From: an uncultured Bacteroidales bacterium
GTDB lineage: Bacteria; Bacteroidota; Bacteroidia; Bacteroidales; UBA932
Reading direction: 5' to 3'
Length of the DNA stretch: 64,000 nucleotides
Assembly: GCA_900316245.1 (NCBI GenBank)
Contig: ONCE01000013.1
Coordinates: forward strand, 1 to 64,000
Numbering within the stretch: the stretch's first letter is position 1; every line of letters begins with the position of its first letter. This document shows, piece after piece, positions 29,113 to 46,953 of the stretch. The position numbers and the translations under genes are program-made. The notes below the pieces were generated by a model. That model did no database searches. It was not told the DNA's origin and saw only the letters and a program-made list of their open reading frames with translations.

Positions 29113-31011
29113 TCAGGGTTCTTTTCTGGGAATAGTCAGAACAAAGCGGGCACCTTCCGTATAGCTGGTGTCCAGCCAGACCTTGCCGCCCAGCTGCTGG
29201 GCCATCATCCGGCAGATGCTGAGGCCCAGGCCGGCCCCCTGCTTGTTGCTGTCCAGTTTGACAAAGCGGTCAAAGATGGCTTCGGCTTTATCGGGCGGAA
29301 CACCGGGTCCTTTATCCGACACCGAGAAGGTGATGTAGCCGGGATTCTCCACCAGCGAACTGGTAAGGACAATATCTCCGCCAGTGGTATTCTTGCAGGC
29401 GTTGGTGAGGAAATTGATGAGAATCTGCTGCACACGCATGCCGTCCGTGATATAACGCGAATCCTCATCAATCCCTGACTGGAGAACAATGCGCGAACCG
29501 CCGGGAAGCCGGTTCTCTACCGTCTTGATGGACTGCAAGGTCATCTCGTTCAGGTCCGTAGGAGCCATTTCAACGGTATATCGGCCATTCTCCATATCCG
29601 AAAGGCCAATCATATCGTTGATCATCATCGTGAGCAGGTGCGAATTGTTGAGCACATAGCCCAGATATTCTTCCTTCTCTTCCGGTGCCAGGATGCCGTC
29701 TGGCATACCCAGCAGCTGCGAGAAGCCTATGATGGAGTTCAGGGGCGTCCGGATCTCGTGACTCATATTCTGGATAAAGGCCGATTTCATCTGGTTGGCA
29801 TTTTCGGCCAGATCACGGGCCTTCTGCAACCGGTGCATGCTGCGGACCAGGGTAAGGATGATAAAGCCCATAAGAGCCACGAAGAAGACAATACCAAACC
29901 ACATCACCTGCCGCCTGTAAAGTTGCCAGAAAGAGACCGGGCGGTTGAGAACTTCTGCATTCTCCGGAAGCAGGGAGGTAGCCAGACCATATCGCCGCAT
30001 GGCGCGGTAGTTCAACGTGGGATGACCGGTCTGCAGATACAGGAAGGGCTGAGAGGAGGGGCTGATCCCCATATCCAACACGTCCAGAATGTACTGTCTC
30101 AGGGCCTGATTGTATTCTTCTACGGGATAGCTGTAATAGCCCATCAAGTTGGGATGCTTCTCCATATTACTAGCAAACATCGTGTAAACCGGCGCCTCGG
30201 ACTCGATGAGCGAAACCGTATTGTGACGAGTAGATACCGTCTCCAGATAGCCTTCCCTGACAAGCCAGGAACTGTAGTATACAGCCATTTCAGGACCCGA
30301 TTCTTCCTCCAGAATGGACAGAAGCTGGTCAGTGGAAGTAGTGGAAGACATTAGCACGTGGTACTCAATCTCCGGATACTGCAGCTGCATATACTCTTCC
30401 ACGCGCCACTGCTGCTCCTTGGACATATAGTTTTCTCCGGCTATGAAATAGAGCTTCTTCAGATTGGGCTGCACCTGGCTGATCATCTCCAGGGTGTGCC
30501 GGATCATAGGAGGAGCCACGATGAGCGACAGGTTGAATCCCCTGGGCCGAAGAGAAGAGACAAAGACGCGGCGGGCGTTGGGATCTCCGGGGCCGTTGAG
30601 GGTGTAGTCCACATCGCAGTAATAGTCCTGTTCTCCCACCAGAAGCATCGGAACCCCGGGCCAGCGCTTCTGGACCTTCTCGGCAAAATTGAACGAACTG
30701 CCACCCAGGAGCATTACCAGACGGGGAGCCTGACGGCGGGACAGAAGGATACTGTCCACCGTGTGCTGCAGCGCAGCCACACTCTTGTGCGAGAGCAACT
30801 GCAGATGATCCAAAGAAACGGTAAGGTCCGGACGCGTGCTTCTGAGCTGCGCCACGGGATACAGCATCTGCTGGGCCCACTCGCTGGAGGTCGTATGGGT
30901 AGACAGGATAAACAAGTCTTCGGGCACATCCCGGCCCTGAGCGAACAGGAAACCGGGAATCAGGAGGAACCCGGCCAGAAGCCCAATTATATAACGTTTC
31001 ATACGCGGCAT
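29113..31011 (-). CDS. hybrid-less sensor histidine kinase with periplasmic binding-protein-like sensor
   Basis: This 632-aa kinase has a signal peptide (to about residue 25), a periplasmic domain of about 320 residues with the alternating beta/alpha pattern of ABC-type substrate-binding proteins ([29 protein letters not shown] region), one membrane helix near 372-392, then HisKA with His418 in [12 protein letters not shown] and HATPase with NACKNT, DKGPGVP and GAGLGLS. There is no receiver. The start could also be ATG 31002. It is the last gene of a six-gene leftward unit beginning with a fimbrillin-like lipoprotein; its likely partner is the receiver-only regulator at 34010. Confidence 0.92.
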
Positions 31012-31012
31012 T

Positions 31013-32323
31013 CTATTTCCGGGAAGCCCATACCTTGGGCGTATACCCTGTTATCCGTTTAAAAGTAGAATTGAAGGAAGAAGCGCTCTGGAAGCCGGAT
31101 GCCTTGGCAATATCTTCCTGAGCCGCCTCCGCGTGCGTGTTCATATACTGCTGGGCATAGTCTACACGCATAATGTTGAGCACCTCCGGGAACCCGATTC
31201 CATAAGTCTGGTTCACCATCTTGGAGATATAGGTCTTGTTGCTGTCCAGCCTTTCGGCCACGTCCTGCAGGGTGAGGCCCTGGCGCAGGAACAGCAGTTC
31301 GTCCTGCATCAAGTGCTGGAAGCGGTATACCAGGGTGCCTTCGTCCCAGCTTTGGTTATTTCCAAAAAGGGCCGATGTAAGGGAGGGTGACCCGGCAGCG
31401 GGCTTCTCTTCCCCCTCGTTCTGCATCACCATATGGGAAATCACGTGCGTAAGGGACTGACCCTGCAGATTATCCACCATATCCATCACCACTTCTTCGG
31501 ATACCCGGGACTGGTTCTCCCGGGAATAATTGAACCGGAGGGCCGACCGCACATCGTCCATCGAGATGGACTCCTTGGAGCCAAACAGGGCAAACAGGCC
31601 GAAAAAGAACAAGATGGCGGACATCACCAGCACGAGGAGTACGGTAGCGACGGGATGGATCCGATAGAAGGGAATATGCAGGAAAACTTTAACGAAAAAG
31701 CCCAACAGAACCAGCAGGGAAAGGGTCATCTGGATTTCCAGCACACGAATTTTATGTCCCTTGAAGAGGAAGCCCACCCAATCCGAGAACTTGAAATGCT
31801 TTTTCCGGATCAAATTGAGGCAATACAGCACAAGAACAATGCTCTCAAAAACCAGGACAGCCCGGAAGACCACCACCGTCCATATATAAAAGGTCTTCTC
31901 CGATCCTACATAGGAAGCATCCGGGAACAACATAATGCGGGAATGGATTCTTTCCAGCAGCATATCGGTTGCGGAAAGCCCGTTCAAGCTGACAAGGGTG
32001 ATACCTGCCGTCGCAAGGGCAATCGGGAATACCAACCAGATAAAATCTATGGGGCCGGGCTTGAAGGGTCTCTCCAGTTTGACAAAGTAAAGCCAGGTAA
32101 ACGGAATGATGGAGGGAGCACAGGACAGGACCACCAGGTGGCCGAGCGTTTCCGATTGGGTAATGGAAGCCATCAGAACGTCTCCGCCTGCCGCAAAGAA
32201 GACGGAGCACATCAAAGCCATAAACAAATTGTAGGCATCCAGACGGGAGGCCAGGAAGCTATGCACCAACATCCAGAAGGCGCAGACCAGTCCACAGATG
32301 ACAAAATAAGGAGTAAGACTCAT
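31013..32323 (-). CDS. membrane-anchored AraC-type regulator (7TM)
   Basis: This 436-aa protein has seven hydrophobic segments in its first 260 residues, a linker, and a C-terminal AraC helix-turn-helix pair ([18 protein letters not shown] near 352 and [19 protein letters not shown] near 402, ending [11 protein letters not shown]). It is thus a one-component regulator kept in the inner membrane, a type known in Bacteroidota. It overlaps the 2-TM gene by 4 bases (ATGA) and its stop is 1-2 bases from the kinase start. The DNA target is likely near its own promoter or the pilus promoter. Confidence 0.9.
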
Positions 32324-32742
32324 ATCAGACCTCCTCCCTGAGCGCTAAGTTCTTCATCCACTTTGTTTTTCTCTTCCATCAGAAGCCCCAGAAGCAAGTC
32401 TCTTTGCTCCTGGGTAAGACCCAGGTCCCGACAGGCGCTGTCATAGCGGTTGAGCACGGCCTCCTGGTAGCGGTGAGCCACCATGGATTTGCGAATCTCT
32501 TCCTCAATACTTTCGTGCTCAATCTCATAGCTTTCCTTGTAATATTTCTTGTATACCACCTCCGAAGTAAACCGGATGCTGTAATAAAACAGACCGGCAG
32601 AGAGGATGAATACTCCAAGCATGCCCCAAAACGGGGAAATCCGCTGGATCAAAGCCAGCAGAGCCAGCACGGACCCCAAAACAAACAGGAAGAGGGCGTG
32701 TAACTCGTGTTTATGATATTGAAACAGGGAAGAAAGGGTCAT
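32320..32742 (-). CDS. two-helix membrane protein with coiled-coil tail
   Basis: This 140-aa protein has two membrane helices (ALFLFVLGSVLALLALI and FWGMLGVFILSAGLFYYS) and a charged cytoplasmic helix (EIEHESIEEEIRKSM). I recognise no family. It overlaps both neighbours by 4 bases (ATGA on each side), so it is translated in step with the TPR protein and the membrane AraC regulator. It may bridge the two in the membrane. Confidence 0.75.
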   Translation of the reverse strand: MTLSSLFQYHKHELHALFLFVLGSVLALLALIQRISPFWGMLGVFILSAGLFYYSIRFTSEVVYKKYYKESYEIEHESIEEEIRKSMVAHRYQEAVLNRYDSACRDLGLTQEQRDLLLGLLMEEKNKVDEELSAQGGGLI

Positions 32743-34007
32743 AATTTGTTGTACGTTTTATTCTGAATCAATTTAATTTTTACGGCATTTTCGGCCTCCT
32801 TGGTTTCCAGGGCCTGCCTGTACGCACGGCGCGCCATCAGGATGGAGTTCTGCTGGGCCCTCATCTTGTCCAGGTTATCCCGCACCCTCCACTGATGGAT
32901 GAGCACGGACAGGAAAGCCAGGAAGAACATCAGGAGGAAACCGCCCAGCAAAAGGAACTGGTTCCGGTTCTTTTGGAGTTCGGCTTCTTCCCGCAGACGG
33001 GCGTTGTCCATTTCGGCCTCCAGGATGGCCACGTCTTCATCCTGAACCCGAAGGTAGACGGAATCCTTTTCGGCCATCAACTGAAGCAGGTTGCCATAGG
33101 CCTGTTCGTAGGCTCCCATATCGGCCAGCAGCACGTGCCGCTGCTCCAGGCGCTCCTGACGGGAATCCAGGGCATCGGCCCTTTCCAATGCTTTCTCCAG
33201 CAGGCCACGGGAGCGAAGATACACTACGTCCAGACTGGCAGGAGTCTCTTTCAGCCCGTCGTAACAGGCCCAGAAGGACTCCAGGTCTCCTTCCTCATAA
33301 TACAGAAGAGCCCGGTTCATAAGGACCTTCTCCCGCATCGCGGGGAAAAAGTCCTGGTATCGGGCCGCCTCGTTGCAGGACTGATGGGCTTCCTCGAAGG
33401 CACCCATTTTCATCTGCTCCTGGGCCAGGAGAAGGTACAGATTGGGAAGTTCCTGCTCGTTCCGGGATTCCCTGCAGAAATGCAGGGCCTGCTGCAGGTT
33501 GTCCACCGCCAGGCGGTCGTTACCTCTATAACTATGGATAAGGCCGATCAGGCGGTAAGAAAACATCTGGCCCAGAGGATTCTTCTCCTTCATCGCCAGG
33601 CGCGAAAGTTCGCGGGCCTCCAGGACGGCCTCCGACATACGGTTGGAGCCCAGGAGGTACTCTATATATTCATTAAGGGTAACGAAATAGAATTCCCTCA
33701 GATCCTTTCGATTGGCCAGCAGCCCCTTGAGTTCTGCGGCAATCACGTCCATCCTCCCATAATCCCCCATCGCATAGCGGACAGGCATCTCCAGGGACAG
33801 GGCCAGGCACTTGTACCTCAGGTTTCCATAGCGCACGCCCACCTGATACAGGGAATCGGCCAACTCCAGATTGGCCGGATCGTACTCCTGCATTCGGGCC
33901 TGGGCATAGCGAAGGAAGGTGGGCTGGTCCACCCGGAGCCTGTTCACAATCTGAGCCTGGGTGCCCAGACTCAGGAGCAGGCACACAATGAATAGGAAAC
34001 GGCGCAC
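32739..34007 (-). CDS. TPR protein with one membrane helix and no kinase domain
   Basis: This 422-aa protein has a signal peptide (MRRFLFIVCLLLSLGTQAQ), about six TPR-like repeats (periplasmic, e.g. YRGNDRLAVDNLQQAL and EEAHQSCNEAARYQ), a coiled coil, a membrane helix (FLLLGGFLLMFFLAFLSVLI) and a short cytoplasmic coiled-coil tail. This is the input half of the TPR histidine kinases common in Bacteroidota with the catalytic part absent. It uses GTG as start, two bases after the stop of the response regulator gene. Confidence 0.85.
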   Translation of the reverse strand: MRRFLFIVCLLLSLGTQAQIVNRLRVDQPTFLRYAQARMQEYDPANLELADSLYQVGVRYGNLRYKCLALSLEMPVRYAMGDYGRMDVIAAELKGLLANRKDLREFYFVTLNEYIEYLLGSNRMSEAVLEARELSRLAMKEKNPLGQMFSYRLIGLIHSYRGNDRLAVDNLQQALHFCRESRNEQELPNLYLLLAQEQMKMGAFEEAHQSCNEAARYQDFFPAMREKVLMNRALLYYEEGDLESFWACYDGLKETPASLDVVYLRSRGLLEKALERADALDSRQERLEQRHVLLADMGAYEQAYGNLLQLMAEKDSVYLRVQDEDVAILEAEMDNARLREEAELQKNRNQFLLLGGFLLMFFLAFLSVLIHQWRVRDNLDKMRAQQNSILMARRAYRQALETKEAENAVKIKLIQNKTYNKL

Positions 34008-34009
34008 GG

Positions 34010-34432
34010 CTACTGTTTCTTATCGGTCTGGGACATGGTAAGCTGCGTAACTACGCTGGTGAGCAGCCTTTCCATGATGATGGGCTTCATAATATAATCA
34101 TCGGCGCCCATATTGAAGCCCTTGGAGACATCTTCTCCGGAAGTAAGGGCCGTGAGGATGATGATGCGGATATTGGCGGTTTCCGGATTGGACTTGAGGC
34201 GGCGGATGACTTCATAGCCGTCTATCCCGGGCATCATCAAATCCAACAGAATCAGGTCCGGCTTGCTGCGGGCTATGGAGTCAAGCGCTTCCTGACCGCC
34301 CGTAGCGGTCTCCAATTGGAAATTGAAACGGACCAGCATCTTCTTGACCAGGAGAAGATTGAGAGGTATGTCGTCCACTGCCAGAACCCGGCAGGAGGAG
34401 AAATCGTATTCTTGGGCGTAGACGGGGATCAT
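34010..34432 (-). CDS. receiver-only response regulator
   Basis: This 140-aa protein is a lone CheY-like receiver: acidic pair Asp20-Asp21, phosphorylated Asp64 in ILLDLMMPG, Thr94 in ILTALT and Lys116 in YIMKP. No output domain follows. It lies 11 bases after the fimbrillin-like lipoprotein gene and 2 bases before the TPR gene. As no DNA-binding domain is attached, it probably acts by protein contact, for example on the kinase, the TPR protein tail or the membrane AraC regulator in the same operon. Confidence 0.93.
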   Translation of the reverse strand: MIPVYAQEYDFSSCRVLAVDDIPLNLLLVKKMLVRFNFQLETATGGQEALDSIARSKPDLILLDLMMPGIDGYEVIRRLKSNPETANIRIIILTALTSGEDVSKGFNMGADDYIMKPIIMERLLTSVVTQLTMSQTDKKQ

Positions 34433-34443
34433 AACTGGGGCAA

Positions 34444-35532
34444 TCAGAAATCTTTGTTACTTTCGTATATTTTGGTTTCCCACCCGCTTACGCTGGCAGA
34501 AAAGTCAATGGGGTGATACAGGGAACTCAGATCCAGGCCGATATGGAAGGTATACTGCTTTCCGGGAATCATTGTATTTCCGGGCAGTAGGCCGTAAATC
34601 ATATATTTGAGAACCTGGTCTTTCATAGGGAGGTATTCTTCCGATCCAATGGAGAAACCGTCTACGTCAAAATGGACTTCCACATACTGGACACCCATTT
34701 CAATCTGGTCAGGAACGGCATAGAAACGATGGCTGGACTCCTTGGAATTGACCAGGGCATCTTTTCCCACATACTGTTTGCCTTCACGCCCCACGCCCAC
34801 GGGAGCATCGCCTTCAAAAACGGTGACATCCCGGTAATAACCCTGGTAATTCCAGATACCTTTGCTAAGAAGGATGTCATTGACATAGACGCCGGCCGAA
34901 GCAACGTGCGTGGCCACCAGTTTGCGGAGATGGATCAGACCCTGCAGCTGGGGAATGGAGGTTACATCGCAGATGCAGAAGCCAATGTCATTGGTTATAT
35001 GGCTGAACTCCAGGGGCAAAGTATTGAGCAGGTTGAAGGAACGCTCCACCGTTTTGGATACAAGCGGACCGGCCTCCGTATCAGACAGCTCGTAGGGAAT
35101 GGAATATGACTCGTTCGAATTCTCGTACAGAACATTGCTCACGTGCGGATAATAGGCACTGAAAAGGAGGGGATCCTGAATTTCCAGCAAACCGCCGTCC
35201 AAAATGGTCTGATATTTTCCGTTGGAGCCGCTGCTAACAAGAATGTTATCGATAATTAGGTCGTGAGATTGTGTTTCAATTCCAATAAGTGCGAAAGGAA
35301 TTGAAACATCCATGGTGGCGAGCATATTGGAAACGGAAGTTTCCGAATCTCCGGAAGCTTTGGTGGAAGCGCCATTTTCGTCCTCCAATTTTACGCCATC
35401 TCGCAAAACGGAAATATCAAAATCCAGCTTCAGGGCACGCTGAGACACGTCTAAGGCATCATTGTCTAAAGTGCTGCAGGAGAGCATCAAAAGCCCGAAT
35501 ACTGAAAATAAGCCGGCGTAAAATAGTTTCAT
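34444..35532 (-). CDS. fimbrillin-like (Mfa-like) lipoprotein heading the signalling operon
   Basis: This 362-aa lipoprotein has a signal MKLFYAGLFSVFGLLMLSC (lipid Cys19) and a mature region with the fimbrillin plan: STKASGD proximal segment, LLFSAYYP strand, LPLEFSHI, and a final TFHIGLDLSS strand with SVSGWETK, as in the FimA/Mfa1 superfamily. It is on the opposite strand from the pilus operon and starts a transcript that continues into the response regulator 11 bases later. I chose ATG 35532, because the upstream TTG would lie before the promoter. It may be a surface sensor, accessory pilin or anchor. Confidence 0.82.
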   Translation of the reverse strand: MKLFYAGLFSVFGLLMLSCSTLDNDALDVSQRALKLDFDISVLRDGVKLEDENGASTKASGDSETSVSNMLATMDVSIPFALIGIETQSHDLIIDNILVSSGSNGKYQTILDGGLLEIQDPLLFSAYYPHVSNVLYENSNESYSIPYELSDTEAGPLVSKTVERSFNLLNTLPLEFSHITNDIGFCICDVTSIPQLQGLIHLRKLVATHVASAGVYVNDILLSKGIWNYQGYYRDVTVFEGDAPVGVGREGKQYVGKDALVNSKESSHRFYAVPDQIEMGVQYVEVHFDVDGFSIGSEEYLPMKDQVLKYMIYGLLPGNTMIPGKQYTFHIGLDLSSLYHPIDFSASVSGWETKIYESNKDF

Positions 35533-35549
35533 AACGCAAATCCTTTGAA

Positions 35550-35581
35550 CAAATATAAACAATTTTTCTTGATTCCACAAA
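35550..35581 (-). promoter_or_regulatory. consensus promoter of the fimbrillin-signalling operon
   Basis: TTTG (35581-35578), 20 bases, TATATTTG (35557-35550) on the minus strand. A perfect match. The ATG at 35532 is 17 bases downstream. Confidence 0.85.
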
Positions 35582-35784
35582 TCTTTTTTCAAATAATTAT
35601 AAACTAATTTTAGTTTTTAAAAATATTTATTTAGTGGCGTTAATTTCTTAATTTCTTGAATGAAAATTTTGAAAAATCAAGCCTCTAGAGCGCCAGAAGC
35701 GACATTATTTCATCAAGGAACAACAAAAATTATTTTGAAATCAAAAATCAAGAATCAGAAATTCTTTCTGAAAATATTTTTCGA

Positions 35785-35822
35785 TATTTATTTTTAAATA
35801 AAATAAATAATCCCTAATTTTG
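35785..35822 (+). promoter_or_regulatory. pilus operon promoter with overlapping inverted repeat
   Basis: The -7 box TAATTTTG (35815-35822) precedes the first pilus gene by 24 bases. Upstream, TATTTATTTT (35785-35794) and its exact complement (35800-35809) form a 10-bp inverted repeat with 5 bases between, covering the -33 position, where only TTTT is found. The weak -33 and the dyad are what one expects of an activator-controlled promoter. The rest of the 314-base gap (35533-35846) is AT-rich with no gene seen. Confidence 0.6.
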
Positions 35823-35846
35823 ATTTCCGGAAAAGGGAGAAACTAA

Positions 35847-37145
35847 TTGGAATTTAGTTCGTTGGAACTCAAGAAAAACATCCTCCGGGCAGTCCTGCCT
35901 ATACTGTTTTTATTCCTCTGCACGGAACTCAGCGCGCAGAGGCATTTCCGTCTCCACTTTGCCCGCAACGAAAGCGAATTCTTCTACACCCTCCTGGACA
36001 ACGATAAAACCCTGGATTCTCTCTACAGGACCGTTAAAGCTATCGGCCCTGAAAATATCCAATCCATTGACGTCAAGGTCTTTGCTTCTCCCGAAGGTCC
36101 CTATCAGTTCAACCAGGATCTCTGCCGCCTCAGAGCCAACGAATTCCGTTATGCCGTTCTCCCCTATCTCAAAGGCGCAGAAGATAAAGTTCACATTACC
36201 ATTGGCGGAGAGGCCTGGGATGAGCTCCGCAAGCGTGTAGCCGCGGATAAAAAGCTCAAACCCATCTTCATTGAGCAGATTCTCGCCATTCTGGACGATC
36301 CTACCATCGACAACGAAACCCGCAAGGAGTACATCGCCACCAGAATCAGCGAGCACAATTACCGTTTCCTGCTGTGGGAACATTACCGTCTGCTCCGTTA
36401 TTACGACATTTTCATCACCACCAAGCCGGAGGAGAAGGAAATGCCGCAGAATGAGCCCGCTCCCCAGGAGGAGGTCCGCGACACCGTCGTAATGGCCGCT
36501 CCCAAGGCCGTTCAGCCCATTATTGAGCCCGTAGAAGAGTCCAAGCCCCAAAAGCGGGTCTTTATGGCCATCAGCACCAATCTCCCTTACGACATCACCT
36601 ACATCCCCGGCTACGGACTCACCAGCATTCCCAGCGTAACGCTGGAAATTATGCCCCGCAACAGCCGCTGGACGCTGGGAGCAGACGTAGAATGGCCTAT
36701 GTGGCAGCATCCTGAGAGCCACCGCTATTTCCAGGTGAACAACATCACCCTCTGGACGCGCCGCTATTTCCGCCCCAAGGAGGAACCCCGCCGCCGCGGC
36801 TGGTATCTGATGGCCAACGTCAATGCAGCCCGCTACGGAATTGGCTTTGACGCCAACAGGGGCTGGGAAGGCGAAGGCCTGGGCGCTTCCCTGGGCTTTG
36901 GCTACCGCCTTCCGCTGGGCCGCTATTGCTTCCTGGATATGGGCCTGGCCGCCGGCGCCTTCTACAGCGCCTACGACCCTTACGTCTGGGGCGACGACGC
37001 CACCCAGTGGTATTATTACGATTATTACGGAGATCCCGCCGCATTCCAAAAACGCAACCAGAGGCTCTGGTGGGCCGGTCCTACCCGCGTCTGGCTGTCG
37101 TTCGGCTTCGATTTCTGGAAAAAAGACAGGAGGAGAGTTAAGTAA
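35847..37145 (+). CDS. DUF3575 outer-membrane protein with OmpA-like N-terminal part (pilus locus)
   Basis: This 432-aa protein has a signal peptide ending ...LCTELSAQ, a periplasmic domain with a pattern typical of OmpA-like/DUF3868 segments (FHFARNESEF-like RLHFARNESEF, DVKVFASPEGPYQFNQDLCRLRANEF core SPEGPYQFN), a Pro/Glu-rich linker (residues 195-235) and a C-terminal beta-barrel domain with the DUF3575 start FMAISTNLPYDITYIPG. There is no ATG in frame; the start is TTG at 35847 with GGGAG 7 bases before it, or TTG at 35862. A stop codon directly precedes 35847. First gene of the pilus operon, overlapping the next by one base. Confidence 0.85.
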   Translation: MEFSSLELKKNILRAVLPILFLFLCTELSAQRHFRLHFARNESEFFYTLLDNDKTLDSLYRTVKAIGPENIQSIDVKVFASPEGPYQFNQDLCRLRANEFRYAVLPYLKGAEDKVHITIGGEAWDELRKRVAADKKLKPIFIEQILAILDDPTIDNETRKEYIATRISEHNYRFLLWEHYRLLRYYDIFITTKPEEKEMPQNEPAPQEEVRDTVVMAAPKAVQPIIEPVEESKPQKRVFMAISTNLPYDITYIPGYGLTSIPSVTLEIMPRNSRWTLGADVEWPMWQHPESHRYFQVNNITLWTRRYFRPKEEPRRRGWYLMANVNAARYGIGFDANRGWEGEGLGASLGFGYRLPLGRYCFLDMGLAAGAFYSAYDPYVWGDDATQWYYYDYYGDPAAFQKRNQRLWWAGPTRVWLSFGFDFWKKDRRRVK

Positions 37146-38275: not shown

Positions 38276-38315
38276 TGTTCAAACAATAATTAATTATTAA
38301 CAACTAAAATTTTTT

Positions 38316-39386
38316 ATGAGTATGAAAAAAGTAGTAATCCTGGCCGCAGCGGCCCTCACCCTCGCCGCCTGCGCAAAGACCTACGAACTCCAGGAAACCG
38401 CCCAGCCCAAAATTGGGTTTGACACCTGGGCCAACAACCTGACCAAGGCCAGAACAGCCGGCAGCAACGAATTTGTTGATGGCGACGACTTTGCCGTGTA
38501 TGGTTACAAGTACAAGAGCAGCGGTGACAATAACACCGTTACCGTTTTTGACGACGTTGTTGTGACCAAAAACAGCACTTGGGGCTATGATGTACCTCGC
38601 TTCTGGGATTCCAACTACGAAAAGTACACCTTTTATGCCGTTTCTCCTGCTTCTGTGGGCACTTCCGGAACGGTTGATCCCCAAACCGGCGAAATCACCA
38701 GCACTAATATCACCTTTGCCGGCAATGACAATGATATCCTCGTTGCTGACATGAAAGTAGTAAATAAGAATGACGGCAATGCATATTTCAATGGTTATAA
38801 CACCGTTGAGATGCATTTCAACCACGTAACGTCCCTGGTAGACATCAAAGTAAAAAAGACTCCTGCCCTTCAGGATGTTGCGGTTACCGTATCTGCCCTT
38901 GCTCTTAACAACATTGAAAATAAAGGCGTTCTGACCGTAAATGATGCTTACACGAATAATAAACCGGTAGCAGACTGGAGCAACGCCGGCACAGGCAGTT
39001 ATTCCGCTAGCCTCGCAAGCGCCGCTACCATTGTTGAAGATCCTGCTTTCAACGCCACCACTCCTGCCACCCCTAGCGGCTCTACATCGATTATCGAGGG
39101 GCTTATCGTAAAGCCTCAAACCTTTGAGACCAGTGGGAACGCACGCCAGCAGATTAGCATTACTTACAAAATCGGTGCAGAAGACGCTGTTACAAAAGAG
39201 CTTTATCTTTCCGATTTTGACACGGTGGATGACGCCGCACAGGACGACAACACCAAGGTCGCTAAATGGGAGCCTGGAAAGCACTATACTTTCTACATCA
39301 CCATCGACGCTAAAATGATTAACTTCAGCGCTGATATTACTCCTTGGGCAGCTGTCACAAGCGGTTACAACTACATCCTCAAATAA
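38316..39386 (+). CDS. fimbrillin, probable major pilin (FimA/Mfa1-like)
   Basis: This 356-aa prepilin has a lipoprotein signal (Cys19 in LTLAACAK) and a basic site NNLTKARTAGSN with Arg46, the position where type V prepilins are cut by a trypsin-like protease in Porphyromonas. The mature part has fimbrillin landmarks: FYAVSPAS, EMHFNHVTSLVDIKV and the final HYTFYITIDAKMINFSADITPW. It has lower GC and different codon use from its neighbours, and a 40-base AT-rich gap precedes it, both consistent with the most variable and most expressed gene of the operon. The second Met (38322) is an alternative start. Confidence 0.88.
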   Translation: MSMKKVVILAAAALTLAACAKTYELQETAQPKIGFDTWANNLTKARTAGSNEFVDGDDFAVYGYKYKSSGDNNTVTVFDDVVVTKNSTWGYDVPRFWDSNYEKYTFYAVSPASVGTSGTVDPQTGEITSTNITFAGNDNDILVADMKVVNKNDGNAYFNGYNTVEMHFNHVTSLVDIKVKKTPALQDVAVTVSALALNNIENKGVLTVNDAYTNNKPVADWSNAGTGSYSASLASAATIVEDPAFNATTPATPSGSTSIIEGLIVKPQTFETSGNARQQISITYKIGAEDAVTKELYLSDFDTVDDAAQDDNTKVAKWEPGKHYTFYITIDAKMINFSADITPWAAVTSGYNYILK

Positions 39387-39389
39387 TCC

Positions 39390-40448
39390 ATGCGTAATCG
39401 CATCATACTCATAGCAGCAATAGCTTCAGGCGCCCTGCTCACGGCAGGGTGCGTGAAGCTGGACAATCCGGCCCAGGAGCAGAATTCCATCTGCTTCCAG
39501 GCCGGATGCTCCCTGCTACGGGAGGATGTCACCACCAAAGGAACCACGGAGAGTTTCACCTCCAACGATGACACTTTTTCCATCTTTGGAGAAAGAATCA
39601 CCTCCTCCGAAGAACACGCCCTGATCTTCAACGGGGATGTGGTAAAACACAGTTACGACGGAGGAAGCACGGACAGTTGGACCTACAACCAAGTCCGCTA
39701 TTGGTCCTGGGCCAGCCAGTCGGACCGCTACGATTTTGTAGCCGTCTCCCCTGCCCTGAATGCAACGACCAATGAGAATGCTGCAGGTAACCTCTCCGTG
39801 TCCACCCATTATAACTGTTACGTAGAAGGTCAACCGGAATCCGGCGACCAATATGACCTTCTGGCAGCCACCTACCGCCGCAACGGGAGCAGCTGGGACA
39901 GACGCTACGAAACCGTCAGCCTCAATTTCTCCCATATGGGAAGCGCTGTTGGTATCAAGATTACCAACAATTCGGCTGCCGCAACAACCATTTCCGTTAC
40001 TTCCCTTTATTTTCAGAATCTGGTAGTCAGTGCCGATGCAAAAGTGAGCCTGGATGCCTACGGACGCACCCTTATGAGATGGGTCAATCCCACACCCAGC
40101 AGGGCTTCCGTCCGGCAAATAACCTACAGCCCGGCCGTTTCGATAGAATCGGGCCAGTCCTACCCCGCCGAAGGCCAGCCGGATTACCAGATTATGATTC
40201 CTCAGGACCTGAACCTATACGAAGCCAAGATGGTCCTGAACTACCAAGTAGGAGATGAAAACTTTTCCAGCGAGATTCCCCTGGCCAGCATCAAACGCAA
40301 CGATGATACGGCTATTACCTCCTGGGAAATTGGTCACAAGTATAACTATAATATTTATATAAGAATGGACGGCGGTCTGCTGGTGACGGTTTACACCACA
40401 CCTTGGGACGTGCCTGTGGCCGCCGAAACCCCCGGTATTCTTATCTGA
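39390..40448 (+). CDS. second fimbrillin (accessory pilin)
   Basis: This 352-aa lipoprotein (signal to Cys21 in LLTAGCVK) is homologous in plan to the preceding pilin: DTFSIFGERI, YDFVAVSPAL, VSLNFSHMGSAVGIKITN and the last strand NYNIYIRMDGGLLVTVYTTPWDV (core YNIYIRMDGG). Basic residues at 44 and 50 could be the processing site. It starts 3 bases after the major pilin and its TGA overlaps the next ATG. It is probably a minor or adaptor pilin. Confidence 0.86.
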   Translation: MRNRIILIAAIASGALLTAGCVKLDNPAQEQNSICFQAGCSLLREDVTTKGTTESFTSNDDTFSIFGERITSSEEHALIFNGDVVKHSYDGGSTDSWTYNQVRYWSWASQSDRYDFVAVSPALNATTNENAAGNLSVSTHYNCYVEGQPESGDQYDLLAATYRRNGSSWDRRYETVSLNFSHMGSAVGIKITNNSAAATTISVTSLYFQNLVVSADAKVSLDAYGRTLMRWVNPTPSRASVRQITYSPAVSIESGQSYPAEGQPDYQIMIPQDLNLYEAKMVLNYQVGDENFSSEIPLASIKRNDDTAITSWEIGHKYNYNIYIRMDGGLLVTVYTTPWDVPVAAETPGILI

Positions 40449-41467
40449 TGCAAAAAAAGGCGTTCATACTGCTTCTCGCCATCTGGAGTATGGTCGCATG
40501 CAACCGTCAGGAGCTCCCTGAGGGGACTCTCCGCATTTCCTTCGAAACCGGGGCCTTGCAGACCAAGGCCCTGGAAGGCGACGGAAATGCAGCCGACGGA
40601 GGGGAAATCGCTATAGATGGCGAAAATCCCGACCTGGTGATTCTGATAGCCAACAGCGAAGGAACCATCGTGGCCAAGTATCCCGGGACGGGAGAATTGG
40701 AAGGCTCTCCCCTCTCCACCAGCGTATCCATTTCATTCACTGGCCTCATCGGAGGGAACACCTATACCGTCTATGCCTTTGGCAATACACGGGGTTTTTG
40801 GAAAATGAAAAGCGGCGAATCGGACGTGACCGACCTCACCGCCCTTACCACCGCATCGGAAGTGGAGGCCCTTCAATTCCAGCCGCAGGCCTCCGATTTA
40901 GACAGTTACGACTGTCTCAAGGTCCTGGGAGAGCGACTTCCCCTTTCGGCCAAAGGTACCGTCACGCTGGAATCCTCTGGAAACGGAGAAATTGAACTTC
41001 CCCTGCTTCGCTGCGTGGCCAAGGTCACGGCCCGCTTCGAGAATCAGTTCGGAGAAGAAATCACCTTATACAATTTTGAGAATACAATGAGAAAGATGCG
41101 TCCCCAAGTGGGATACGTGGTCGCTCACCAGAACGACTACCCCGTAGCTCCGGCCGACGCATTGGACCTCACCTCCGGCGAAAACAGCATCACCATTCCC
41201 AATGACAGTGCCTACAAACTGTCCTGGTATGTCTTCCCCAGCATTGGGCCCTATACCTGCGACGTTCAGTTCAAACTGTCCAATGACGGGGACATCCGCC
41301 AGTTTACGGGTCTCCCCATCCACGACGACCACGCAAGAGACATTCTGCAGCTGACCCGGAACCAGCACCTGACCATTACCACCCGCATCAGCGCCGGTCA
41401 GAGAGTGTCCTTCAATTTCGAGGTCGCGGATTGGGAAGAAAAAACCGAAAGGATTACATTTGATTAG
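40448..41467 (+). CDS. FimB/Mfa2-like pilus anchor lipoprotein
   Basis: This 339-aa lipoprotein (MQKKAFILLLAIWSMVACN, Cys18) has the FimB/Mfa2 plan: an opening LRISFETGALQTKA, NPDLVILIANSEGTIV, YTVYAFGNT, and a second domain with LLRCVAKVTARFEN and ending VSFNFEVADWEEK. In Porphyromonas such proteins stay in the outer membrane and anchor and limit the length of the fibre. The ATG shares two bases with the stop of the upstream gene. Confidence 0.85.
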   Translation: MQKKAFILLLAIWSMVACNRQELPEGTLRISFETGALQTKALEGDGNAADGGEIAIDGENPDLVILIANSEGTIVAKYPGTGELEGSPLSTSVSISFTGLIGGNTYTVYAFGNTRGFWKMKSGESDVTDLTALTTASEVEALQFQPQASDLDSYDCLKVLGERLPLSAKGTVTLESSGNGEIELPLLRCVAKVTARFENQFGEEITLYNFENTMRKMRPQVGYVVAHQNDYPVAPADALDLTSGENSITIPNDSAYKLSWYVFPSIGPYTCDVQFKLSNDGDIRQFTGLPIHDDHARDILQLTRNQHLTITTRISAGQRVSFNFEVADWEEKTERITFD

Positions 41468-41469
41468 TT

Positions 41470-44400
41470 GTGAAAAAGCATTTACTCATAAAGGTCACGC
41501 TGGCAGCGCTTCTTCCGCTGCTCACCCTGTCTTGCGCCCATACTCTGGAAGAAGAGGTACCCGGCAGCCGGTTGCCTGTAGGAACTCCCATCACCATGCG
41601 GCTGGACTTCGGGGCCAGCGAGTCGGTGAAACTGGATGTTTCTACAAAGGCCGAATCTTCCCGGGCCGATGAAGAGCGCATCCACGACCTTTATGTGATG
41701 ATTTTCTGCAACAACCCGGAACATCATCACCACAAGCAGGACAAGGACAAGATTTACGGCAGGTATTTTTCCTACGAACACCTGAACAGACAAGGCCTGG
41801 AAAGCCTGGAACATAGCAATAACGAAGGCTGGTGGGTAGAAAACAAGACCCTGGACACGGCGCCCCAGGAAATAGCCGTTGCCAAAACGGCCGGCGCCGT
41901 CAAAATCTCCACGCAGGTCTGCGACGCAGCCACAGTGGTAGTGATTGCCAACCTGGACAATTCCATTTGCAAACTGGGCAACCTGGACGACCAGATTGCT
42001 TACCTGAACGGCATCCAGACCTTTGAACAGCTGAGGAGCACCCAGGTAAGGCTCCAGCAGGACATTGTGAACCGCAAGGATCTTTTCCTGATGATGGGAA
42101 CGCTGGAGAACGTCAACACGGAAAACATGGTTTGGGGCACCCTTCCCAAGAACTACAATCAGGACTATAAAGTTTCCCTGAAGGCCCTGGACGCCAAGGT
42201 CAAGTTCAAGGTCAGCGCCAATGAGGAATTTATCAGAACCGTCAAGCCTGTCAACTGGTCTGTGAACAGTGTGCCCGACCGCTGCTACCTTTTTGCCGAT
42301 TATGACGGCGGAAGGGCCCCGGAAGGAACCGTCTATTTTGACTCGGAGCCGGCTTATTTTGACGGAATGGAAGGAGATGACTATGTCTTTTCCTTCTATA
42401 TGCTGGAAAGCAGGAACGAACCCAAAGCCCACGCCACCCAATACCACGACCGCGAAAAACAGACCAAGCACACAACCAACAAGGGCGGCTACGGGGGCGA
42501 CGCTAACGAGTATTTTGTAGAGAACGGAGAATGGATTTACGCCCTTCCCCAGGCTCCCTACGTAAAATTCGACCTTATGCTCACCCTTACGCCTGCAGCC
42601 GTGCAGGCTATGGGCGGAGGAACCATCAACAATGCCCTTACCACCGAAACTGTCTACACCGTACACTTGGGCGACTTTGACAATTCATCCCTGAGATACG
42701 ACGACTACAATACCCTCCGCAGCACTTGCTACACGTACGATATTTATATCCACAACTCCGGAAGCATCTACGCAGAGGTTAAAAGGGACGAGGAGAACCA
42801 GCCCAGCCAGGAAGGATATCTCCTGCTCACCAATGACGAAATCGTAAACGCCGACTGCCACTACGAGAACCACTCCATCACCTTCGAATACGACCCTGAA
42901 ATGTCGGCGGATAAGTTCTCCTGGTACGTAAAGACTCCCTTTACCACCCCGCAGGGCGGCGGTCCGGTCAAGGGAAGCAAGGAAGTAAACGGAATCAAGT
43001 ACCCCGTCTTTGACCCCCACGACTCGGACGGAACGCTGCTGGATTTCCGCTGGGTAAAGTTCTCCATCAACGAGCAGGATGATAATACAGGTTACAGCAC
43101 TCACCGCGTGGCCTACCCCGGCGACGATAAATACAACCCGGATTGGGGCGTCGGTGAGAACGGACCCTGGAATGACGTGTCCCATCCCAAACTGATGGAT
43201 GCCAGCCAGTTCATTCAGTATATTTTCGAACAGACCAAGCGGGCCAATGAAGGAGAGGAAAACGACTTCAAGGTGGACAAAACCCTTGGCGACAACACCC
43301 ATGACGTGAGAATAATCCGGGCTACCATCTTCATAGATGAGTTCTATTACGAGTACGACCCCCGCGACGAGAGCGGCCATCCGCAGACGGACCCCAATCT
43401 CTGGCGCAAGTTTGTGAACACCCAGCCGCGCGAGATGCACATCCTCTCCAAGACGGTGCAGAGCCGCGACCGCAAGAGCGACGTCATCGAGTCCAGCCAC
43501 TCCATCGTCCAGCAGTCCATCCAGACCATCTACAACGTCTTTGAGCCGTCGCTGAGGTCCATCTGGGGCTGCGAGCATATGGACGAGATCAAGGTGAAAG
43601 AAGAAAACGGTACCCTGCTGGGCAACTGGCCCTACTGGCCCGTGAATTGCTCCGATTCCGAAAGATCCGGTGCCAACAACGACATAGGAAAAGAAAACGG
43701 AAGACTGAATTCGGCCTTCATCTGGGGTCTTTACAGTAATCAGGGGAACAATGGCCAGTACTACACCACCAATGGACTGGGGAGACGGTCCTGGAAGCAT
43801 TTCCTCAAGTATGAGGTGGATAACACCATTCCGGAACTGAGAGACGACGACGGCGAAGACTGGTATGGAAACGACGTCGCAAGTCACCATTTCCACGGAA
43901 TGGCCTGGTCCTGCCTCGCCCGCAACCGCGACAACAACGGTAACGGTACCATCGAACAGGATGAAGTCCGCTGGTACCTGGCCTCCTCCCAGCAGCTGGC
44001 TGGCATCTGGGTAGGAACCTCCTCCCTTTCGGCCAGCGCACGCCTGTATCAGCCGGCTGCCGGCCAATGGCGCTCCCACGTAGTGTCCAGTACCGCCAAA
44101 CTGGTGAGCTGGGCCGAAGAAGGCGGCGGTGCCACCGATATCAAATTCGACTTTCCCCCGAGCGGCGGTCCCAACACCAACTACCACACCTGGAACAGCT
44201 CGGAAGAAGCCTCCAAGGGAGAAAGCGTCCGCTGCATCCGCAATATCGGCACTTACGACGACCCTCAGAAGGGATTGACAGACATTACTTATTCCCCGGT
44301 CACCGAACTGCCCGACAAGTACTTCACCATCACAAGGAGTGACGGTGGAGACGTGAATTCCTATACGGCCGAAGATTCAGACCAGTACTACATCTTCCAT

Positions 44401-46953
44401 TTCGACCGCCTCAACACCAAATCCATCCGTGAATACACCACCGGAGAACTCCCCTACCACGACCAGATGTCGCAGAACAACCAGGTGTACGTCAAGATGG
44501 TTACCCAGAGCCTGGACCAGGATGTCCCCGCCTTCAACGTAAAAGCGGGAGAAATCAACAATCTGGTCACCCAGGCCGGACACAATGACTACTGCCCGGA
44601 AGGATACCGTTTCCCCAACCACACGGAATTTCTTCTGATGTCTCTGTATCTGCCGCAGTCTTACCTCCAAAAGGACAAAGACGGGAACAGCTACTCCGGG
44701 GGCAGGGCCGTAAGTCCCACCAGAACCTACTACGACAAGGGCTACTACGGAAGTCTTAAGGACCCGGCCTGGGAGATGGAATACGAGAAAATAGGCTGGA
44801 TTTACTCCGACAAGCTCCATTGTGTGGGATACAATGAGAAGGTAACCCACTCCCGCTGCGTAAAGGATTCCGACCAGACGGGCATCATCTCCGGTAAAAT
44901 TGCCGTCGAAGGCAACATCATCTACCCCGGAGACGTGATTCCCGTAGATTTCAAGTTCTCCTCCACGGCATCCACCTTTACCAATGCCACCCTTACGCTC
45001 TGGTACAGCAAAAACGGATTCCGCACTCCCTACGACCTTACGTCCCAGCTCAAGACCCCCAAGGGCCTGCAGTATATAGGCACGCAGGGCATCCAAATCC
45101 CCACCCTCACCGACCTGGGCCTCACATCGGCCAATCTCCCTTACGAAGATATGGCCCTGGAAGTAGTCCTCACCAATCTCAACGGACTCACCGGAAGTCA
45201 CACGCTCAATGTATCCATGGTGAACCCGCTGGATGGCAACTTCCGTGTAAAGGACCCCGTAGACGGCAACAAGATCTTCCCCGACGACCGCAACTCCGTC
45301 CTGCTCAACCTCCATACCGATACCCACGAGCAGAACATCAGCGAGGTTTCCCTGAAGATTTGCTACGACGACAAGGAAATCCCGCTGGATATTGAGCAGC
45401 TGGGCATCAACAAGAAGACCTACACGCTGGATGAGATCCAGATTCCCGCACTGAACTACCTCACGGGAGTATCTGTCGACCTCCTGAACACCGCCGACAA
45501 GGCTGTCACGCTCAAGGCCACGGTCTCCATCACGTACAACAATACAAGGATGGGTGGAACCGAGACCCTTACCAAGGAGTACACGCAGAACCTGGCCCTT
45601 TCCAATCCGGTCCGCGGTACCATTGATGGCGCAAATTACCTGTATCCGGCCGGAAGTGAAGAAAACGTCAACTTCAACTTCCAGACCCGCTCGCACAACG
45701 GGACGCTGAACAGCGCCCTTCTCAAGCTCCAGTATACCCGTCCCGCAACCGGAGAGCCCGCCGAATACACCTTCCAACTGAATCAGCAGCCTTCGGCAAG
45801 GGTATTTACTCCCGAACTGGCCCTTGATATGCCCACCCTCACGGAGCTGGGCCTCTCCGCCACCGATCTGCCGCTGAGCGCCACCCTGCTGGCGGAAGTA
45901 TCGGATGCCAACGGATTAAAAGCCCAGTCCAGCAAGTCCGTAACCGTCAAATCCCACTTTGGCGGAACCGTGGATATTGTGGATGGCTTTGACCCCGCCC
46001 AGGGATTCCCCATTACCATTACGCCCGAAGTCATCTCCAACTTAGCCGTCCAGATTGTAACCCTGCGCTGGAAGAAGGAGGGTGATACCGACTATACAGA
46101 AGAGCCCGTTTCCATTACCTGGACTGGCAGCACCATCACGGCCTACTGGCACCCCTCTTTCCTGGACAGTGATACCGATGTACTGAGCGATGACAGCCAG
46201 ACCCGCACCTACTACTTCACGGCCATTGTGGGAAACAGCAACGACGCAGGCGTCATCGGCCTCAATGAAAGTGCCGATCCGGCTACCATGCAGTTCTTCA
46301 AGATCAATTACAATCCCAACCCCGGCAACTGGACTTATCAGAACCAGCCCCCGGCATCTTCAAAATGGTATGCCCAGACTGCAAGCAATATGAATTTCGA
46401 GGCGGGAGACTTCTTTGATGCCTATATGGATGTAAGCAACTGTACCTACGGTCCCAAGAACCCCAACAGTACAGATAAAAGCGACTTGGGTATGGACAAC
46501 CTGTTGTCACTCGGCCGCAGAATACAGAGTGTCGACGGAAAACCGGCACTGCAATGGAGCCCCGGAAACGGAAACATCATCTTCTATTATCCGGCCAGAA
46601 ACGGCGACAAGAACAACCTGCAGATAGCCGTTCTCTCCAATGCCATTTCCAGGGCGCAACCCTTCTCTATCGATTCGGGTAAGATGAGGGTCCTGCTCAA
46701 GAGATTCAATGGTGAGGGCCATCTCATCCTCAACAATTATGGAGAAGCACAAGGTGTTGAACCCAACTGGTACAGCCAGGAGATATATTATGATAAGTAT
46801 TCCGACTCCGAACTGCAATCCATGGCTGAAGCCGCCCAGGGACGACTGGATGAACTCACCAACAGCAACACCCTCTATATGGCTTCAACAGAAGGTGTTC
46901 ACCGCTCCCGCGCCGTATACAAGTACGTGCGCGTGGTGCGCAAGCACAACTAA
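41470..46953 (+). CDS. giant DUF4906-family pilus tip/adhesin protein
   Basis: This 1827-aa lipoprotein (signal to Cys22 in LTLSCAHT) has the DUF4906 start (IHDLYVMIFCN, near residue 72) and repeated Ig-like segments in the second half: four related blocks near 1155, 1255, 1375 and 1480 recur with the pattern (G)NIIYPGD.IPVDFKFSS, NKIFPDDRNSVLLNLH, LYPAGSEENVNFNFQ and FP.TITPEV. The opening is GTG at 41470, 3 bases after the anchor gene. Large proteins of this type sit at the tip of Mfa-like fibres and bind host or partner cells. The HHHH near residue 80 is chance or metal binding. Last gene of the pilus operon. Confidence 0.88.
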   Translation: MKKHLLIKVTLAALLPLLTLSCAHTLEEEVPGSRLPVGTPITMRLDFGASESVKLDVSTKAESSRADEERIHDLYVMIFCNNPEHHHHKQDKDKIYGRYFSYEHLNRQGLESLEHSNNEGWWVENKTLDTAPQEIAVAKTAGAVKISTQVCDAATVVVIANLDNSICKLGNLDDQIAYLNGIQTFEQLRSTQVRLQQDIVNRKDLFLMMGTLENVNTENMVWGTLPKNYNQDYKVSLKALDAKVKFKVSANEEFIRTVKPVNWSVNSVPDRCYLFADYDGGRAPEGTVYFDSEPAYFDGMEGDDYVFSFYMLESRNEPKAHATQYHDREKQTKHTTNKGGYGGDANEYFVENGEWIYALPQAPYVKFDLMLTLTPAAVQAMGGGTINNALTTETVYTVHLGDFDNSSLRYDDYNTLRSTCYTYDIYIHNSGSIYAEVKRDEENQPSQEGYLLLTNDEIVNADCHYENHSITFEYDPEMSADKFSWYVKTPFTTPQGGGPVKGSKEVNGIKYPVFDPHDSDGTLLDFRWVKFSINEQDDNTGYSTHRVAYPGDDKYNPDWGVGENGPWNDVSHPKLMDASQFIQYIFEQTKRANEGEENDFKVDKTLGDNTHDVRIIRATIFIDEFYYEYDPRDESGHPQTDPNLWRKFVNTQPREMHILSKTVQSRDRKSDVIESSHSIVQQSIQTIYNVFEPSLRSIWGCEHMDEIKVKEENGTLLGNWPYWPVNCSDSERSGANNDIGKENGRLNSAFIWGLYSNQGNNGQYYTTNGLGRRSWKHFLKYEVDNTIPELRDDDGEDWYGNDVASHHFHGMAWSCLARNRDNNGNGTIEQDEVRWYLASSQQLAGIWVGTSSLSASARLYQPAAGQWRSHVVSSTAKLVSWAEEGGGATDIKFDFPPSGGPNTNYHTWNSSEEASKGESVRCIRNIGTYDDPQKGLTDITYSPVTELPDKYFTITRSDGGDVNSYTAEDSDQYYIFHFDRLNTKSIREYTTGELPYHDQMSQNNQVYVKMVTQSLDQDVPAFNVKAGEINNLVTQAGHNDYCPEGYRFPNHTEFLLMSLYLPQSYLQKDKDGNSYSGGRAVSPTRTYYDKGYYGSLKDPAWEMEYEKIGWIYSDKLHCVGYNEKVTHSRCVKDSDQTGIISGKIAVEGNIIYPGDVIPVDFKFSSTASTFTNATLTLWYSKNGFRTPYDLTSQLKTPKGLQYIGTQGIQIPTLTDLGLTSANLPYEDMALEVVLTNLNGLTGSHTLNVSMVNPLDGNFRVKDPVDGNKIFPDDRNSVLLNLHTDTHEQNISEVSLKICYDDKEIPLDIEQLGINKKTYTLDEIQIPALNYLTGVSVDLLNTADKAVTLKATVSITYNNTRMGGTETLTKEYTQNLALSNPVRGTIDGANYLYPAGSEENVNFNFQTRSHNGTLNSALLKLQYTRPATGEPAEYTFQLNQQPSARVFTPELALDMPTLTELGLSATDLPLSATLLAEVSDANGLKAQSSKSVTVKSHFGGTVDIVDGFDPAQGFPITITPEVISNLAVQIVTLRWKKEGDTDYTEEPVSITWTGSTITAYWHPSFLDSDTDVLSDDSQTRTYYFTAIVGNSNDAGVIGLNESADPATMQFFKINYNPNPGNWTYQNQPPASSKWYAQTASNMNFEAGDFFDAYMDVSNCTYGPKNPNSTDKSDLGMDNLLSLGRRIQSVDGKPALQWSPGNGNIIFYYPARNGDKNNLQIAVLSNAISRAQPFSIDSGKMRVLLKRFNGEGHLILNNYGEAQGVEPNWYSQEIYYDKYSDSELQSMAEAAQGRLDELTNSNTLYMASTEGVHRSRAVYKYVRVVRKHN

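Follow-up and report, generated by a model that had tools for sequence, protein, structure and literature searches.

Among Bacteroidota of the gut and mouth, type V pili are a widespread kind of fimbria. In the DNA analysed here, a stretch of 64,000 nucleotides from an uncultured Bacteroidales bacterium (the window), a type V pilus operon stands back to back with a run of signalling genes, and the first gene of that run encodes a lipoprotein that resembles a pilin. The locus raises the question of what such a protein is doing among regulators – whether it is part of the filament or reports on its assembly. The lipoprotein gene is labelled FIMLIP in this report. The host genome has 2.24 Mb in 35 contigs, and the only RNA element found in the window is a tRNA-Ala (148–221).

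The minus-strand run from 35532 to 29113 consists of FIMLIP, a receiver-only response regulator, a TPR protein, a 2-TM protein, a 7TM-AraC protein and a histidine kinase (Table 1). All six genes were found where the initial annotation had placed them. The spacings between them (HK/7TM-AraC/2-TM/TPR/receiver/lipoprotein) are 1, −4, −4, 2 and 11 bases, in agreement with the 11-base lipoprotein–receiver gap and the 4-base overlaps or gaps of less than 3 bases described there, and both the 314-base divergent region (35533–35846) and the promoter of the lipoprotein operon were recovered. Domains above the Pfam cut-off in the window are Response_reg, HisKA/HATPase_c, HTH_18, DUF3575, DUF5119 and Mfa_like_1 in two pilins. 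A C69 peptidase gene (27451–29112) abuts the end of the kinase gene at 29113, with zero bases between the stop codons, and this neighbour is kept in the related loci L013 and L014.

Table 1. Genes and regulatory features of the divergent locus in the window
Feature	Position	Strand	Remarks
Histidine kinase, 632 aa	29113–31011	-	Own N-terminal sensor region, TM, HisKA and HATPase_c (Pfam)
7TM-AraC protein	31013–32323	-	Seven predicted membrane helices, C-terminal AraC-type HTH; model pLDDT 78.0
2-TM protein, 140 aa	32320–32742	-	Topology read from sequence; travels with TPR gene in related loci
TPR protein	32739–34007	-	Signal peptide, TPR region, one TM and short coiled-coil tail, read from sequence
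Receiver-only response regulator, 140 aa	34010–34432	-	D20, D64, T94, K116; Response_reg 95 bits
Pilin-fold lipoprotein FIMLIP	34444–35532	-	Invariant Cys19, C-terminal Phe362; alignment of 67, model pLDDT 81.1, PDB fold matches
Lipoprotein-operon promoter, Bacteroidales type	35550–35581	-	TTTG-N20-TATATTTG; one of 3 matches in window, 0.44 expected
Conserved 66-base block, candidate AraC operator	35711–35776	+	Upstream of pilus promoter; best conserved stretch of region (window, L013, L014)
Pilus promoter -7 box	35815–35822	+	TAATTTTG; TTG -33 element missing
DUF3575 protein, first pilus-operon gene	35847–37145	+	40.5 bits, cut-off 21.1; read from TTG start at 35847
DUF5119 protein	37145–38275	+	44 bits, cut-off 27
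Pilin 1, Mfa_like_1	38316–39386	+	83.9 bits, cut-off 27
Pilin 2, Mfa_like_1	39390–40448	+	82.2 bits, cut-off 27
Mfa2-like protein (weak)	40448–41467	+	Mfa2 18.2 bits, below cut-off 21.2
Large 1827-aa protein, operon end	41470–46953	+	Related large genes in L013, L014, L051

The plus-strand genes had been described as a complete type V pilus operon. The DUF3575, DUF5119 and two pilin genes bear out a pilus operon; the Mfa2 match below the cut-off and a 1827-aa gene with no domain match do not bear out its completeness. The DUF4906 assignment once given to this last gene was not supported, as the protein had zero matches in Pfam (E <= 10) or NCBIfam (E <= 1). From its position, the 1827-aa protein is possibly a tip adhesin. 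The gene differs strongly even in close relatives, with ca. 40% identity over roughly the first 300 residues.

FIMLIP had been called fimbrillin-like, a description that holds for the predicted structure, which has the two-domain type V pilin fold and PDB matches, and fails for Pfam, where the Mfa_like_1 score is 15.1 bits against a cut-off of 27 (E 0.023). FIMLIP is predicted to be pilin-like by fold, and not by sequence match. PF13149 is present in the precomputed annotation of many of its relatives. Searching PDB sequences with the FIMLIP profile gave one match (E 0.51), which was taken as chance. Cys19 is invariant in 67/67 aligned FIMLIPs, of which 58 fit a simple lipobox pattern; in 58/58 of these matched rows a K/R after T/S/N follows downstream of the lipobox, at the place of a putative protease site of the kind that opens the groove in type V pilins, this being a loose pattern used without a control. 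In predicted fold, lipoprotein start, C-terminal tail and, by that loose pattern, K/R in a loop, FIMLIP is like the type V pilins of Bacteroidota (Mfa_like_1, FimA, Mfa1). It is unlike them in its slow evolution, its operon shared with regulators and its fixed 11-residue tail ending in Phe.

The pilin-like anatomy would suit a constrained structural or assembly subunit – a starter, anchor or cap – that is merely co-regulated with the signalling genes and conserved through contact with a conserved export or assembly machine. This is the main rival to a reporter role, and it has a fair probability, somewhat below that of the reporter. The tail and the K/R loop are also expected of a working subunit, and an anchor pilin keeps its lipid, according to the available part of a review of type V pili (PMC12632263). 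Against a subunit stands, to begin with, the position of the FIMLIP gene outside the pilus operon.

The C-terminus also argues against a subunit. The last residue is Phe in all 67 aligned FIMLIPs and in 46/46 locus copies (39 loci and seven further), and it lies exactly 11 residues past the last Trp in 39/39 FIMLIPs. The 11-residue spacing is shared by 23/88 pilins having a Trp in the last 40 residues, and a final Phe was found in 1/98 pilins. Six pilins within pilus operons are related to FIMLIP (L053, L060, L082, L083, L156, L157; 285–330 bits as FIMLIP rows), and these end in Leu or Met, 18 residues past the last Trp. Since a Phe end occurs in every FIMLIP examined, in a single pilin of the 98 and in none of the six related operon pilins, it marks FIMLIP and not pilins generally. 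One genome (G795; L161, L119) has FIMLIP in triplicate, and two of these copies lie close to a single pilus operon.

The first set of related loci comprised 43, of which 39 have a FIMLIP orthologue; L048, L049, L082 and L083 have none and were left out. L115 and L116 were dropped as copies of L013 and L014, and four FIMLIP-like operon pilins scoring <450 bits were dropped before the counts. The relatives are mostly draft or metagenome assemblies, and the genes of the loci were called in six frames with profiles built here. A 7TM-AraC gene lies in the FIMLIP run or directly beside it in 35/39 loci: right after FIMLIP in 31, further down the run in 3, and on the other side in 1 (L065). Two of these 35 genes are short forms (L079, L080), and four loci have no 7TM-AraC gene (L050, L075, L076, L077). 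The receiver is in the FIMLIP run in 31 of 39 loci. Of the 35 FIMLIP loci flanked by more than 1.5 kb, 29 have a divergent DUF3575 gene, up to 4.2 kb away and in a few cases separated by intervening genes. Six have no adjoining DUF3575 gene (L050, L057, L075, L077, L079, L080); the neighbours in L057 include a FimA-domain protein, and a DUF5119 gene is ca. 18 kb off on its contig.

These loci show that a pilin homologue and a membrane signalling set are indeed paired, as had been proposed, and that the pairing is conserved and linked to pili; the initial annotation had named its absence from all relatives as a result that would count against it, and the pairing was present. The full window order was also found in L013, L014 and L117 (genome G779), which together with the window form one clade (support 100/100 in a FIMLIP tree of 44), and other merged orders occur in L051, L079, L080 and L153. 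A pilin paralogue that came to lie beside regulators by chance could account for an exact order seen in one clade of 4 species only. It would hardly account for a 7TM-AraC gene in or adjoining the run in 35/39 loci, or for the co-occurrence of FIMLIP with the remaining signalling genes even where they are unlinked, and an accidental neighbourhood is extremely improbable. A search for the gene order across Bacteroidales had been proposed as a check. The exact order did turn up in three relatives, and a FIMLIP search of 393 genomes drawn from the order returned the window's own genome alone, so FIMLIP is no general Bacteroidales feature and its order-wide conservation is rejected; all genomes in which it was found belong to one family.

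The signalling genes had been described as a single split cassette. They are better seen as two modules, one of the lipoprotein and 7TM-AraC (often with the receiver) and one of HK-RR-TPR-2TM, and the single cassette holds for the window's clade of 4, where both are joined in one run in the window order. Elsewhere the second module adjoins FIMLIP in one run (L119, L079, L080, L153), divergently (L118) or convergently (L075), and in L050 and L076 module genes are next to FIMLIP, with HK not detected. In nine loci (L135–L141, L144, L148) the HK-RR-TPR-2TM block has a pilus cluster nearby, whose last recognised pilin is ca. 6 to 11 kb away; in the stretch fetched around the module, pilus genes were not recognised in L121, L122, L124, L127, L132 and L133. 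Five FIMLIP loci (L050, L075, L077, L079, L080) have FIMLIP with module genes or parts of the module and no pilus gene recognised in the fetched stretch, an arrangement that speaks against FIMLIP as a subunit.

In the receiver, D20 (of the acidic pair), D64 (the phospho-acceptor) and K116 are kept in 36/36 rows, and position 94 is S in 32 and T in 4; Response_reg is its only Pfam match, and a DNA-binding domain was not found there. The TPR protein has TPR_1 at E 1.5e-4, below the Pfam cut-off, and neither a kinase nor an HTH match, and the 2-TM protein had zero Pfam matches above cut-off. The kinase domain was matched in 47/47 related rows, the sensor region of the window kinase in 6 rows, equal to 4 species. 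The N-terminal sensor region appears to have been exchanged in the window's clade (window, L013, L014, L117), the other rows having the same kinase domain and a different N-terminus. TPR-type sensors are not claimed for other kinases, as Pfam gave sub-threshold matches in two of four scanned (L119, E 0.0069; L077, E 0.034).

The association between the two modules was also measured across genomes of the genus, with searches for FIMLIP in 200, for the TPR protein in 400 and for DUF5119 in 200. For the joint counts, the 200 genomes searched for FIMLIP are taken to lie all within the 400 of the TPR search and to be identical to the 200 of the DUF5119 search; among the rows listed, the genome handles agree with this except for G338. 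Weak rows were dropped before counting (FIMLIP in G235, G248 and G272; TPR in G228 and G283). Strong FIMLIP matches were found in 34/200 genomes (37 with the weak ones), all positives being in one family of genomes, and TPR matches in 78/400, with 37 strong ones among the 200. Both were present in 33 genomes, FIMLIP only in 1 (G364) and TPR only in 4 (Fisher p 3.6e-32, uncorrected for kinship). The TPR-only genomes G209, G235, G293 and G378 have the module (L150, L132, L151 and L152) and a DUF5119 gene, without a full-strength FIMLIP match. As far as these sequence counts go, the link between FIMLIP and the module is strong, not strict, and FIMLIP is not needed wherever the module occurs, unless the draft assemblies of these four miss it. 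The four genomes count in favour of a subunit.

So does the distribution of DUF5119, which was found in 89/200 genomes – in 34/34 FIMLIP genomes, compared with 56 of 166–167 others. The 34 are 33 from the 200-genome search plus G338, which is absent from the positives listed there and positive in a search of 22 genomes. That search found DUF5119 in 22/22 chosen genomes, including the four TPR-only genomes and ten whose FIMLIP either lies apart from any DUF3575 operon or is at the end of its contig.

The 7TM-AraC gene stands beside some pilus operons and not others. Among 16 pilus loci fetched next, five have a divergent 7TM-AraC gene (L155, L159, L161, L162, L165) and eleven have none, two of these at contig ends. 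As a control, 20 pilus operons were fetched from FIMLIP-negative genomes, and L175, with no upstream DNA, was dropped; a 7TM-AraC gene was found at 3/19 usable operons, one of them a weak match (62 bits), and 16/19 were without. Divergence of 7TM-AraC from a pilus operon without FIMLIP was seen in L048, L049, L082, L155, L159, L162, L165, L184 and L185. From the 5/16 and 3/19, 7TM-AraC belongs to a subset of operons, above all the FIMLIP-bearing ones. In L156 and L157, two pilus operons lie back to back and diverge from one region.

The rates of evolution set FIMLIP apart from the pilins. In the 20 loci having all genes (190 pairs), median identity was 60.4% for FIMLIP, 37.2% for AraC, 32.8% for DUF3575, 21.6% for DUF5119, and 23.1% and 21.3% for the first two pilins; the receiver had 62.1% (105 pairs). 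Compared with L013 and L014, FIMLIP had a dN of 0.115 and 0.208 and a dN/dS of 0.095 and 0.134. The dN of the Mfa2-like gene and the two pilins was 0.322 to 0.738, which is 1.5 to 5.8 times the FIMLIP dN, with dS near saturation for some. Judged by these comparisons, FIMLIP appears to evolve at the pace of the regulators, unlike the pilins, which weighs against a subunit. The distances of FIMLIP correlate with those of HK (rho 0.68), TPR (0.67), AraC (0.62), DUF3575 (0.53) and DUF5119 (0.47), correlations that shared ancestry alone could produce and that are not separable from species kinship.

The slow evolution also bears on a further explanation, in which FIMLIP acts at the surface as the receptor of some external ligand, for instance a glycan, and the operon adjusts both itself and the pilus to this ligand rather than to assembly. 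Pilin-fold adhesins are able to bind ligands, which counts for a receptor, as do the lipoprotein's own promoter and a kinase sensor region that differs between the window's clade and the other relatives. Ligand-binding surfaces usually vary, however, and among the surface proteins compared FIMLIP changes most slowly; an extra binding domain was not seen in its model. A receptor is on balance improbable, even with the precedent of an iron-responsive locus of Bacteroides thetaiotaomicron that has a fimbrillin-family protein and a helix-turn-helix regulator, pilus genes not being named for it in the available part of PMC10434189.

The divergent region offers candidate sites for regulation on both sides. 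A promoter of the form TTTG and TAnnTTTG is present on the FIMLIP side in 19/23 divergent regions, the window included, compared with 0.3% of mononucleotide shuffles. On the pilus side, the -7 box is present in 20/23, and 9 of the 23 also have the TTTG -33 element, so dependence on an activator is suggested for the window's clade only. Between the promoters, 28/40 columns at 35714–35753 are identical in the window, L013 and L014, compared with 133/314 overall (column permutation p 0.0097, from a short alignment and ignoring correlation between neighbouring columns). The core at 35741–35766 was also found in L117 (26 nt at 88%). By its conservation and place, the block at 35711–35776 fits a putative activator site. 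Repeats in the divergent region were short, imperfect or AT-rich matches, and a clear invertible segment was not found.

The candidate activator has seven long membrane helices in its model and the AraC-type HTH domain of AraC/XylS regulators, with HTH_18 at 47.7 bits (cut-off 33.6) and HTH_AraC at 28.4 (cut-off 26.6). The HTH of its model has matches in the PDB (best E 3.3e-3), and a cytoplasmic stretch at 265–325 is of low confidence. Kinship of the membrane part with class B receptors was rejected as too weak (Foldseek best E 6.8e-3, query TM 0.34, rmsd 7.9).

A predicted type V pilin fold, conservation like that of a regulator and the company of 7TM-AraC opposite a pilus operon suggest that FIMLIP is a dedicated pilin-fold reporter of pilus assembly rather than a filament subunit, a reading to which we give a probability of roughly 0.45. 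The initial annotation had suggested that the lipoprotein reports on pilus assembly or surface contact and that 7TM-AraC controls the pilus promoter. The reporter reading draws on conservation together with the signalling genes, presence in 33/37 module genomes, and a rate and tail unlike those of filament pilins. Counted for a reporter are the pairing, the co-occurrence with the module and with DUF5119, the slow evolution, the fixed C-terminus, the promoters and the conserved block; counted against it are the loci without 7TM-AraC (4/39) or DUF3575 (6/35), the four module genomes without FIMLIP, and the many pilus operons without a divergent 7TM-AraC gene (11/16, 16/19).

As a reporter, FIMLIP would be exported as a surface lipoprotein equipped with the parts of a pilin – a lipidated N-terminus, an N-terminal strand, a flexible K/R loop and a C-terminal tail. 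A switch in the state of FIMLIP, or of its tail, would follow whenever pilus assembly or the processing machinery is occupied or stalled. The sensor of HK, with the TPR-TM and 2-TM proteins, would read that state and phosphorylate the receiver-only regulator. The receiver would then influence the membrane-held 7TM-AraC through direct contact, and 7TM-AraC would in turn switch on the pilus promoter from the conserved block. The full promoter of the lipoprotein operon would mean that the reporter is made before the pilus. In a more specific and rather unlikely version, FIMLIP is a non-polymerising decoy pilin whose 11-residue Phe-ended tail is a ligand for assembly state, hidden when docked in the pilus machine, exposed otherwise, and read by the HK/TPR set to set the membrane-held AraC activator. 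If FIMLIP were such a decoy, type V pili would have their first pilin-fold reporter. Conserved and travelling with regulators, FIMLIP is a concrete, testable candidate for pilus feedback.

On how assembly of type V pili might feed back on their expression, the available part of a review mentions a phase-variable locus and tip diversity and not feedback control (PMC12632263). A literature search covering mainly papers outside subscription journals did not find this gene set reported. In B. thetaiotaomicron, a response regulator is listed with DUF3575/DUF3868 genes (BT4233–BT4236), which like those beside the window's regulators are of pilus type; this is known from a table entry, and neither a 7TM-AraC nor a pilin-fold lipoprotein is named in the part of that paper available (PMC10434189). 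For type IV pili, PilS of Pseudomonas aeruginosa is described in the sections available as a membrane kinase that responds to the level of the PilA pilin and governs transcription of the pilin (PMC6058289). The combination of membrane kinase and pilin-derived signal parallels the role proposed for FIMLIP, with the difference that PilA is a filament subunit in the inner membrane, and FIMLIP a separate conserved lipoprotein of another pilus class. CpxP of the Escherichia coli Cpx system is not known to have a pilin fold. According to the available text, the sensor kinase CpxA of this system is acted on both by an accessory envelope protein, CpxP, and by a pilus subunit, which when misfolded drives CpxP off the kinase (PMC4160245). 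Cpx is a general envelope-stress system that is not encoded with one pilus, unlike the window set beside its pilus operon.

Also among the closest known systems is FimS/FimR of Porphyromonas gingivalis, a two-component system that controls type V pili, as is proposed for the window set. FimR reaches fimA through the gene that opens the cluster and binds directly to the mfa1 promoter, and in the part of the paper available neither a pilin-fold lipoprotein nor a 7TM-AraC is named as part of the system (PMC1974823); the window set has both. Work cited in the same text found lower fimA transcription in a P. gingivalis fimA mutant, which makes feedback from a type V fimbrillin plausible. The TPR protein matched the FimS model weakly, at 15.9 bits (E 0.0029) against an NCBIfam equivalog cut-off of 600, and FimS was not among the best 25 of 81 NCBIfam matches of the window kinase. 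With this TPR score, and with FimS also absent from the best 25 of the 69–76 matches of each of five relatives' kinases, membership in FimS/FimR was rejected. FimR binds DNA, whereas the regulator in the window is a lone receiver, and the proposed output side, formed by that receiver and a membrane-embedded AraC protein, is unlike FimS/FimR.
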